DNA of 40,373 nucleotides from Candidatus Colwelliibacteriota bacterium. Lineage in GTDB: Bacteria; Patescibacteriota; Minisyncoccia; UBA6257; Colwellbacteraceae. Shown here piece by piece: positions 21,062 to 24,635 of the stretch. The translations under genes and the position numbers were made by a program. The DNA lies in the NCBI GenBank assembly GCA_016176505.1, contig JACOXB010000002.1:1-40373 (forward strand). Direction: 5' to 3'. Every line of letters starts with the position of its first letter. Within the stretch, counting starts at the first letter, position 1. The notes under the pieces are model-generated. The model saw only the letters and a list, made by a program, of their open reading frames with translations, was not told the origin of the DNA and searched no databases.

Positions 21062-21113
21062 ATCCCCCCTGCCCTGTGATTAATCACGTGATTAATCACA
21101 GGGCAGGGGGGAT
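21062..21113. repeat. 52-bp perfect loopless palindrome
   Basis: ATCCCCCCTGCCCTGTGATTAATCAC|GTGATTAATCACAGGGCAGGGGGGAT; core is two tandem copies of the 12-bp palindrome GTGATTAATCAC. Confidence 0.98.
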
Positions 21114-21133: not shown

Positions 21134-21307
21134 ATGGGGAGAAGATCGATCCCAGAGGAGAATATTAGAAATCTCCAGAAGTCGCGGCGGAGCTATTACC
21201 TTAATCTGCCGATCGAGATGATTCGGCGACTTGGATGGAAAGAGAGGCAGAAAGTGGTGGTGGAAAAACGCGGCCGGGAGATTGTAATTAAAGACTGGAA
21301 AAAATAG
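21134..21307 (+). CDS. AbrB/MazE-like swapped-hairpin small DNA-binding protein (57 aa)
   Basis: MGRRSIPEENIRNLQKSRRSYYLNLPIEMIRRLGWKERQKVVVEKRGREIVIKDWKK; -10 TATAAT at 21122-21127; below the ORF track length cutoff. Confidence 0.8.
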   Translation: MGRRSIPEENIRNLQKSRRSYYLNLPIEMIRRLGWKERQKVVVEKRGREIVIKDWKK

Positions 21308-22347: not shown

Positions 22348-22608
22348 CTATCTATACCAAGCGCCACCTACCTCCTCGTCTGCTCCCAGATTCTCGGCGT
22401 GCTGCCGAAAATCGAAGGGCGGGATGAGCTGCTCCCGGAGGATCTCTTCGACGAGCTCCGCGAGCTCTGCCGGAGTGATACCGACCGACTTCGCCACGGG
22501 CCCGAGCGCGCTGTAGAAATCGTCGCAAGCGATCTCGAAGCGCCGCCGGCTACTGAGCAGATACTTGGATAACCGAGAAGCGATCTCCGCTTTTCGCACT
22601 GCGCCCAT
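22348..22608 (-). CDS. small alpha-helical protein, paralogue family member 3
   Basis: SD AAGGAGGTGG upstream of ATG; shares EIA..L.KY...LG.VA...GI...EL..LV.EIL pattern with 22632-22859 and 24393-24635. Confidence 0.7.
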   Translation of the reverse strand: MGAVRKAEIASRLSKYLLSSRRRFEIACDDFYSALGPVAKSVGITPAELAELVEEILREQLIPPFDFRQHAENLGADEEVGGAWYR

Positions 22609-22631
22609 ATCAGAACCACCTCCTTCTCTAG

Positions 22632-22859
22632 CTAAGAGCCGAAAATACTACGGGGCAGACCCGCGAAGAGCTGCTTCAGGAAAGCGCCGAGCTCCTCCGG
22701 GGGGACATTGATCGCTCTCGCGATCTCCCCGACCCTGCGTCCGAGCACATGCTGAAGAGTTTCTTCCTCGCCCCTAAGCACGCGCTCCGCCACGAGTTGG
22801 TAGAGACAGTACTTGAGAAAGAGCCAGGCGATCTCACCCTTTTGTTGGGGATCCATCAT
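22632..22859 (-). CDS. small alpha-helical protein, paralogue family member 2
   Basis: SD AAGGAGGTG then ATGATG at 22859; KGEIAWLFLKY...LGRRVGEIARAINVPPEELGAFLKQLF. Confidence 0.7.
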   Translation of the reverse strand: MMDPQQKGEIAWLFLKYCLYQLVAERVLRGEEETLQHVLGRRVGEIARAINVPPEELGAFLKQLFAGLPRSIFGS

Positions 22860-22896
22860 GGATTTCACCTCCTTTCCCTACTCGCTGATCCTATGG

Positions 22897-23955
22897 TTAG
22901 GGGCTGAACCCCATATCCTTGTCCGTTTGCCCCATCGCCTCAAGGGGATCTGCGCTGCGGGCGAGAATCCTTATGGCGTCGATGTTCGGCAAGACCGCGA
23001 GCGTGCGGTAGTACAAGGCGAGTTTCAACCGCAATACAGTCGCCTTTCCCTTGGGCGTTACTCGCAAGCTGCCGCCGAAAACAAGAATTGGCGGCACTCG
23101 GTCATCAATTACCCGGGCGAGATTGATGTCGTAAGTCCCCATCACAGAATCGGGCAACACCCGGACACGCGGAACACTACCAAGCCGCTCAATTATAGTT
23201 GAAGCGAGTATTACGCTTCTCGTTTCAATCTCCAGAGAGACCGCGTAGTGTAGCATCCCGGGGATTTGGATGACGCTTTCCACCACGATTTCCATTTCTG
23301 GAAAAAGTTGTTTCAGTTCATCTTCCATTCTCGGAATGTAAGCATCCGCGATCCTGAAGGTGTTGACCCGCTCGGTGACGAGGAAATCGCTTTCCCGCCC
23401 ATCGTACTGCATGACTAGATGAATTCGAACAGATCTAGCGACGTCTCTGAGGGCGGCGAGCACCGGAACCACACCGGAGAGGAAACAGCCTCCCTGACGG
23501 AATTTGTTGCCTCCTTGCGGCGGAGCTACAAGCGGTGGCGAGATCAATCGCCCGCGAGGATACTCGCCATCTTGCAGTATCACGGCTCCTGGAAACGCTT
23601 GGTATTGCTTCTGGAGAGCGTGTCTCATGCCGGGCGCGGCAGCGTCTATGACGATGTCGCACGTCTGCCCTAGGTCAAGTTGCTCAACCGGGTGGAATCT
23701 CAGAAAACCCGAACCGCTGTTGAGCCTAGCAATGGTGTCTTCGGGTTCATCAAGATACACCTTCTTCGGAAGGGCACTACGAGCGAGCGGACCGCCGAAG
23801 TCGTAACGATCGAGTAGACGCTGGAGGGTCGGATCATACTTGAAAATGCCGACCGCCAACTCCATATCCTTGCTTTGAGCAATAGCAATAGCGAGACGGG
23901 AACCAAGCAGGCCGGCTGCTCCACGGATTCCAACCCGAACCTTATCTTCTTCCAT
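22897..23955 (-). CDS. archaeal/type II glyceraldehyde-3-phosphate dehydrogenase homologue (divergent)
   Basis: KVRVGIRGAAGLLGSRLAIAI Rossmann start; GGCFLSGVVPVLAALRD at the position of archaeal SCNTTGL..; C-terminus VLPNIDAIRILA..TDKDMGF matches archaeal GAPDH VPENIDAIRA...T...LG. Start taken at ATG 23955 with SD GGAGGGGG rather than the ORF-track TTG at 23991. Confidence 0.75.
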   Translation of the reverse strand: MEEDKVRVGIRGAAGLLGSRLAIAIAQSKDMELAVGIFKYDPTLQRLLDRYDFGGPLARSALPKKVYLDEPEDTIARLNSGSGFLRFHPVEQLDLGQTCDIVIDAAAPGMRHALQKQYQAFPGAVILQDGEYPRGRLISPPLVAPPQGGNKFRQGGCFLSGVVPVLAALRDVARSVRIHLVMQYDGRESDFLVTERVNTFRIADAYIPRMEDELKQLFPEMEIVVESVIQIPGMLHYAVSLEIETRSVILASTIIERLGSVPRVRVLPDSVMGTYDINLARVIDDRVPPILVFGGSLRVTPKGKATVLRLKLALYYRTLAVLPNIDAIRILARSADPLEAMGQTDKDMGFSP

Positions 23956-23983
23956 TCTCCCCCTCCTTGTTGTTAAAGATCTT

Positions 23984-24027
23984 CTAGACAAACTAAAACG
24001 CCTCAGCTTGTCTAGCCGAGGCGTTTT
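23984..24027 (-). promoter_or_regulatory. candidate pseudoknot/attenuator in the 5' leader of the GAPDH-like gene
   Basis: Interdigitated pairing on + coordinates: CTAGACAA (23984-23991) / TTGTCTAG (24008-24015) and AAAACGCCTC (23995-24004) / GAGGCGTTTT (24018-24027). Confidence 0.6.
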
Positions 24028-24098
24028 TCAGTAAAGAGTTAGAGAATGATTTAAGTTGAATTTATATCCAGATTAAAACCGCCTTGGCTAAACAAACT

Positions 24099-24134
24099 AA
24101 AAATGCCGCAAGTAAAGACAAAAGACTCACGGCA
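24099..24134 (-). terminator. intrinsic terminator-like hairpin in the same leader
   Basis: Minus strand: TGCCGTGAGT-CTTTTGTCTTT-ACTTGCGGCA-TTTTT; two U:G pairs make the stem continuous only on the minus strand. Confidence 0.65.
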
Positions 24135-24239
24135 ATCCGGAGCGATAAGCCACATATTCATTTGGCGGTTATGCTCTTGCATAATAGATAAAACGTTAAA
24201 GGATTTAAGAAGTTACGTCAAGCTTTTCTAAAAATGGTT

Positions 24240-24267
24240 GTGCCCCCCGACTTAAGTCGGGGGGCAC
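24240..24267 (-). terminator. 28-bp perfect palindrome, probable terminator of 24393-24635
   Basis: GTGCCCCCCGACTT|AAGTCGGGGGGCAC followed on the minus strand by AACCATTTTT. Confidence 0.6.
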
Positions 24268-24392
24268 GGGGACAGCACGAGGACGGCGGGGAGAGGTTCT
24301 TGTTCTGCCCTTGGTCCGACATGACGTCGGACGAGGTGCAATTACCCTTTTAGGGGGCGCTTTCGCCCCACCCTAGCCATCCTCGCTTCCGG

Positions 24393-24635
24393 CTACTCGG
24401 CGAAGGTCTCGTCTAGCAGCTCCTGCAGGATCTGCCTCACGAAAGGCGCGAGCTCTCGCAGGGGGACCTCGATCGCTTGGGCAACGCTTCCGAGGTCGCG
24501 CCAGATGCCGTTTCCTCGGAGCTCGATGCCACGCCGGCCGAAGTAGTACTTCAACATCTTGCGAGCGATCTCGCCCCTCCGTAGACGCTCGGCGAGTTCG
24601 ACGGGATCCATCTTCGGATCGCCATCCTTCATCAT
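24393..24635 (-). CDS. small alpha-helical protein, paralogue family member 1
   Basis: SD AAGGAGGTGAG; RGEIARKMLKYYFGRRGIEL...DLGSVAQAIEVPLRELAPFVRQILQELLDETF. Confidence 0.75.
   Translation of the reverse strand: MMKDGDPKMDPVELAERLRRGEIARKMLKYYFGRRGIELRGNGIWRDLGSVAQAIEVPLRELAPFVRQILQELLDETFAE

Follow-up and report, generated by a model that had tools for sequence, protein, structure and literature searches.

The leader at positions 24221-23956 (minus strand) of the window, the 40,373-nucleotide stretch of DNA analyzed here, belongs to a conserved RNA family, which by sequence comparison appears to span the Patescibacteria and is absent from Rfam. We estimate a probability of roughly 0.78 that the leader is a ribosome-mediated attenuator, built on the logic of the tryptophan operon and vmlR leaders and probably responsive to antibiotics. 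The comparative data establish, as features of the sequence, the conserved element itself, an upstream open reading frame (uORF), the placement of the promoter and four pairings; we infer from them that termination is the readout and that antibiotics are the inducing signal.

Family range and downstream genes

A DNA search with the leader retrieved pieces of 69 to 87% identity from five genomes within the order, each piece lying ahead of a different kind of gene than in the window. Two covariance models, R1 for the 3' half of the element and R2 built on 17 members, found further members across the order, class and phylum, ahead of non-homologous genes. R2 matched 32 of 243 genomes of the order and 34 of 384 of the class at E ≤ 0.01, and 10 of 380 of the phylum at E ≤ 0.001, all three counts including some plain terminators. 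The model matches were curated by eye and plain terminators were removed, leaving 48 members; the loci dropped as plain terminators or chance matches were L028, L029, L031, L032, L034, L050, L056, L058, L060-L062, L070, L072, L073, L086 and L090. A strict DNA pattern occurred at 7 places over 84,980 named species, all of them in metagenome-assembled genomes titled Candidatus Harrisonbacteria, Yanofskybacteria, Jorgensenbacteria, Paceibacterota or "bacterium"; in viral contigs the pattern found no element. The first-pass annotation of this DNA had described a resemblance to a riboswitch or attenuator of no recognized class. An attenuator of no recognized class is supported: Rfam 15 gave no family at the gathering threshold besides tRNAs, and nothing credible at E ≤ 5.

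Members share the same order of elements: promoter, uORF AUG, segment 1, variable hairpin, segment 2, uORF stop codon, segment 3, and segment 4 with a U-tract. On the 3' side of the U-tract follow a strand termed x', often a boxA-like motif, the Shine-Dalgarno sequence and the gene. Among the 48 downstream proteins scanned, 19 contain MFS_1 and 14 a GNAT domain, and the regulated genes also include one ABC exporter. Since ten host genomes carry only 1 to 4 MFS loci and 0 to 4 Acetyltransf_3 genes each, the association of the leader with both types is strong. For each of 12 MFS proteins tested, the best match is a TetA(P) or Tet(40) model, far below the curated cut-offs, and one of the GNAT proteins is similar to acetyltransferases of spermidine and of aminoglycosides. 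These gene types suggest ribosome-targeting drugs as the signal. Behind the leader in two different genomes lie related proteins of an unknown family (L007:2077-2751 and L005:1573-2061; KFLLVSYN..GFxSGI..GRLII), and L046 and L049 have in common another small family of no assigned kind (GGYKFIV..).

In the window, whose contig belongs to a 466-kb genome that is 97% complete, the regulated gene (22897-23955, minus strand) encodes a divergent type II (archaeal-type) GAPDH-like protein of 352 amino acids, preceded by the Shine-Dalgarno sequence AAGGAGGGGG (23959-23968, minus strand). The protein matches NCBIfam NF003251 with an E value of 1.4e-14, under the curated cut-off of that model, and PDB 2czc with an E value of 1.3e-6 and the catalytic Cys aligned. 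We found no relatives of the gene in the 200 related genomes, viral contigs or phages searched, and therefore the leader, not the gene, was traced further. The GAPDH-like gene is an atypical target of the proposed switch, an unexplained exception among the regulated genes. The glycolytic connection initially entertained for this locus is not supported, as the relatives precede MFS pumps and GNAT acetyltransferases.

On its upstream side, the unit is bounded by a palindrome with 14-nt perfect arms (24240-24267, minus strand), terminator-like in our scan, which belongs to an upstream small gene and lies outside the switch. The surroundings have features of their own. A GC-rich island (22348-24635, minus strand; 55 to 64% GC versus about 45% around it) contains the GAPDH-like gene and three similar small ORFs (80, 78 and 86 amino acids; GEIA..LLKYY...) that have common DNA pieces and gave no family match; the contents of the island were possibly acquired together. 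The upstream small-ORF operon (24800-24640, minus strand) opens with a perfect TTGACA-17-TATAAT promoter and has its own short hairpin leader (GCTACGAGGGTTTCGTAGC). Elsewhere, a 57-amino-acid ORF resembling an AbrB-type DNA-binding protein (21134-21307, plus strand) adjoins a long perfect palindrome (CCCCCCTGCCCTGTGATTAATCACGTGATTAATCACAGGGCAGGGGGG, about 21069-21112).

Promoter, upstream ORF and alternative helices

The window's promoter (24193-24221, minus strand; joint score, 8.9) consists of a -35 TTGACG (24221-24216) and a -10 TAACGT (24198-24193) separated by 17 nt, with transcription predicted to start at about 24187-24185. Most of the 48 relatives have a -35/-10 pair with about the same 17-nt spacing at the equivalent place, usually of the sigma-70 type, L006 and L019 being without a clear promoter. 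The AUG of the uORF (MQEHNRQMNMWLIAPDCRESFVFTCGIFSLFSQGGFNLDINST; 24051-24182, minus strand; 43 codons plus stop) lies about 4 nt past the predicted start site; across the family, it is mostly found 4 to 13 nt downstream of the -10 box. When the AUG was picked from the promoter score alone, blind to the frame, the selected uORF was open through segment 2 in 42 of the 48 members, compared with 10 and 8 for the other two frames. A short leader ORF with the appearance of a translated one thus sits between the promoter and the putative switch.

The family uORF runs through segment 2, and its stop codon lies ahead of segment 3. In most members segment 2 would encode FNQGG, in others LTKA, and the third frame would hold UAA or UAG; its use in two frames argues that its sequence is kept as RNA. 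Toward the N terminus, 27 members share the pattern [RCHY][QHK][ML]N, and 21 of these have its Asn at codon 9. The constraint here falls on second codon positions, for hydrophobic and Q/K/H residues, and the invariant AAU may reflect an RNA constraint too.

Segment 1 (24155-24170, minus strand) is made of AACCGCC (24170-24164) and AAATGAATA (24163-24155) and corresponds to uORF codons 5 to 9 (NRQMN). It pairs with segment 2 as an anti-antiterminator, 24170-24164 forming a 7-bp duplex with 24083-24077 (-12.4 kcal/mol). Segment 2 (TTGTTTAGCCAAGGCGGTT; 24077-24095, minus strand), the last part of the uORF, can instead pair with segment 3 (AAAACGCCTCGGCT plus the loop AGACAA; 24008-24027, minus strand) as the antiterminator, through a duplex of 24095-24080 with 24023-24008 (-24.3 kcal/mol). 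Segment 4 (AGCTGAGGCGTTTT at 24008-23995, plus a U-rich stretch; 23990-24008, minus strand) forms with segment 3 a terminator-like hairpin, AAAACGCCTC..GAGGCGTTTT (24027-23995), which has 14 pairs and a CTAGACAA loop and was flagged by our terminator scan. The U-tract behind it is short in the window (UUUUAGUU, UUUUAG); 47 of the 48 members have at least 5 U within 8 nt after the stem. Finally, x' (TTTGTCTAG; 23984-23992, minus strand) pairs with the loop of 3:4 in pseudoknot order. The near-identical 15-mer at 23984 and 24088 (93% identity), already remarked upon in the first-pass annotation, arises because segment 2 and x' both complement this one loop. Compared with shuffled sequence, the whole leader has the better fold (z = -3.4; 0 of 200 shuffles).

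Support for the four pairings comes from comparing the duplex energy of each member's own segments with that of partners swapped between members. Over the 48 members, cognate pairing gave z scores of -8.8 for 1:2, -10.2 for 2:3, -14.5 for 3:4 (although the arms of the latter had been picked by pairing) and -14.4 for loop:x', while control combinations were null (-0.7, +0.8 and +1.2). The result persists in 27 divergent members of less than 60% identity, with a z of -5.3 for 1:2; a cut-off of 0.62 in the first alignment scoring proved too strict, leaving 6 members. Covariation was also evident in a 38-row alignment, fitted to 3:4 only and with two opposite-strand rows among them. Helix 2:3 has 16 pairs, with 87.6% of cells paired and both-side changes in 11 of the 16 (0 of 500 shuffles), and 3:4 has 13 pairs, with 96.4% of cells paired and both-side changes in 9. 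For loop:x', both-side changes occur in 7 of 8 pairs, the figure of 66.2% of cells paired being due to the uneven alignment of x'. Segments 2 and 4 both covary with the same columns of segment 3, and helices 2:3 and 3:4 therefore exclude each other.

These results refine the first-pass annotation, whose named sequences, including TTATGC-AAGA-GCATAA, all lie on the minus strand where it had placed them, and whose call for conservation and covariation among homologous leaders is answered by strong signals of both kinds. Its mutually exclusive terminator and antiterminator are supported, but the actual antiterminator segment, 16 nt long, lies more upstream and had been left unconnected in it. The uORF, the promoter and the 2:3 and 1:2 pairings did not figure in it. 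It had also read a hairpin with its trailing U-run (24134-24099) as a functional strand-specific terminator. The stem does exist (TGCCGTGAGT...ACTTGCGGCA; 24104-24134, minus strand). Its arms (24134-24125 and 24113-24104) form 10 bp, two of them G.U pairs, ahead of UUUUU, and in the window it shows local folding (z = -2.1). However, this is the variable, non-conserved interval inside the uORF, where other members have unrelated hairpins or none and no common U-run, so the proposed function is not supported.

Ribosome position, readout and competing explanations

Folding at equilibrium was computed with the ribosome footprint blocked, disregarding pseudoknots and kinetics. In the window, a P site at codons 7 to 11 gave 0.75 for 2:3 and about 0 for 3:4, and a P site at codons 24 to 39 gave 0.96 for 3:4. 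The family mean for 2:3 (48 members) was 0.18 without a ribosome, about 0.40 for early stalls and 0.04 at codon 30, a mean shift of moderate size. The structure is thus predicted to depend on the position of the ribosome.

We propose that transcription would begin just upstream of the near-leaderless uORF and that a ribosome slowed or stalled within the first ~15 codons would cover segment 1. Segment 2 would then be free to pair with segment 3 as the antiterminator, and the gene would be transcribed. With no ribosome, 1:2 would form, followed by the U-tailed 3:4 hairpin; a ribosome running on over segment 2 would likewise let 3:4 form, and expression would be off in both cases. The Tet-type MFS pumps, GNAT acetyltransferases and ABC exporter suggest ribosome-targeting antibiotics as the natural signal.

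Two conserved features lie beyond the U-tract, where a plain intrinsic terminator needs neither. The boxA-like motif (GATCTTTAACAAC; 23969-23981, minus strand) matches at least 9 of 11 positions of TTCTTTAACAA in 22 of the 48 members, versus 2.0 expected in shuffles. Its identity as a boxA is presumed from its resemblance to E. coli rrn boxA. We set aside confirmation through the native rRNA leader, as no canonical boxA occurs within 330 nt upstream of the 16S rRNA in 7 relatives (L091-L097). In most of these, a UUUUCUAGUUGUCCCAAU-like sequence recurs about 20 to 120 nt upstream of the 16S rRNA, where a boxA would be expected, and may be a native antitermination or processing signal. Strand x' could displace segment 2 from segment 3. 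The interdigitated pairing noted in the first-pass annotation is real and covaries as loop:x', but the H-type pseudoknot also suggested there is doubtful in strictly stacked form: in the window no more than 1 to 3 nt follow the complete 3:4 stem, which means that x' is a competitor or that the stem opens at its A-U end.

These downstream elements leave some room, about three chances in ten, for the same uORF and switch to act through a translational or Rho/Nus-dependent readout, in which a pseudoknot of the 3:4 hairpin with x' on full-length RNA, together with the boxA-like site, would control initiation or processivity. In the window, the linker can indeed pair with the SD-AUG region (GAGAAUG) at -18.8 kcal/mol. 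Across 44 members, however, neither linker:SD nor any other SD pairing tested shows covariation (z from -0.8 to +0.9), and we rejected sequestration of the SD, whether by the linker, by the variable part or by segments 1 or 2; the U-rich stretch kept in 47 of the 48 members and the lack of a canonical boxA ahead of the 16S rRNA of relatives also speak against such a readout. A more far-reaching version of our model is similarly tentative. It would make the family a phylum-wide, hitherto undescribed class of ribosome-sensing leaders. The near-leaderless uORF would govern a switch with two steps: first the 1:2/2:3/3:4 cascade, and after the U-tract a checkpoint where x' and the boxA-like site jointly act on the transcribing polymerase or on its coupling to the ribosome. 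The leaders would then define a general translation-stress or antibiotic regulon before unrelated genes, including the window's GAPDH-like gene.

That the stall might instead report a shortage of one amino acid or its tRNA is improbable. The 1:2, 2:3 and 3:4 architecture is the textbook one for such attenuation and Asn is common at codon 9, but the leader peptides of the family have no run of a single amino acid or rare codon, and the regulated genes are exporters and acetyltransferases, not biosynthetic genes. Very unlikely is a metabolite riboswitch, for instance for a glycolytic intermediate, as first envisaged from the strong structure and pseudoknot-order pairing of the leader. No Rfam family matches, conservation is lacking in the stretch that separates segment 1 from segment 2, the downstream genes have no metabolite in common, and what is conserved is an open, translated-looking frame with mutually exclusive helices, not a region resembling a ligand pocket. 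As for chance hairpins next to the ordinary 3' end of the upstream gene, the terminator-like palindrome at 24267-24240 would fit, but sequence and covariation kept across order, class and phylum, together with a promoter and uORF, refute this explanation.

Known attenuators and significance

In the attenuator of the tryptophan operon the pairings come in the order 1:2, 2:3, 3:4, and the leader peptide overlaps the first two segments. The Patescibacteria leader shares both the segment order and this overlap; it differs in having no regulatory amino-acid codons and in preceding genes that are not biosynthetic.

Comparable attenuators have been described in Firmicutes and in streptococci (PMC9226507, PMC4191407, PMC4335068). 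In the B. subtilis vmlR leader, for which the logic of the switch predicted here was demonstrated experimentally, an antibiotic-stalled uORF blocks the anti-antiterminator, so that the antiterminator forms, intrinsic termination is prevented and a resistance gene is expressed (PMC9226507). That leader belongs to another phylum, has another sequence and regulates an ABCF factor, whereas the family described here has a near-leaderless uORF, an additional covarying loop:x' pairing and a boxA-like motif after the hairpin. The B. subtilis bmrB-bmrCD system likewise uses a leader ORF with alternative stem-loops for ribosome-mediated transcription attenuation of a drug exporter, induced by protein-synthesis inhibitors, but is a single Firmicutes operon (PMC4191407). 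Its terminator is described as lying within the coding region of the leader ORF (PMC4191407), and in Patescibacteria the putative terminator is 3' of the uORF stop. The mef(E)/mel leader, compared here by description, is also a macrolide-inducible transcription attenuator with a leader peptide ahead of an efflux pump and is conserved across mobile elements, but its peptide, MTASMRLR, is far shorter (PMC4335068).

A full-text search of the open-licence literature yielded no paper on leader-peptide attenuation in Patescibacteria. Catalogues of resistance-like genes exist for their genomes (PMC8651080), and according to a 2024 review, inducible expression in these bacteria is still in need of a system (PMC11665869). 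Regulation in Patescibacteria is almost unknown, and the leader family would represent a previously unreported switch, probably antibiotic induced, in uncultured ultrasmall bacteria. With strand x' and the boxA-like motif comes a specific question of mechanism, that of a step after the terminator. If our reading is correct, these ultrasmall bacteria sense translation stress through a conserved switch placed before Tet-type pumps and acetyltransferases, and this switch would offer a native, testable inducible element for Patescibacteria.
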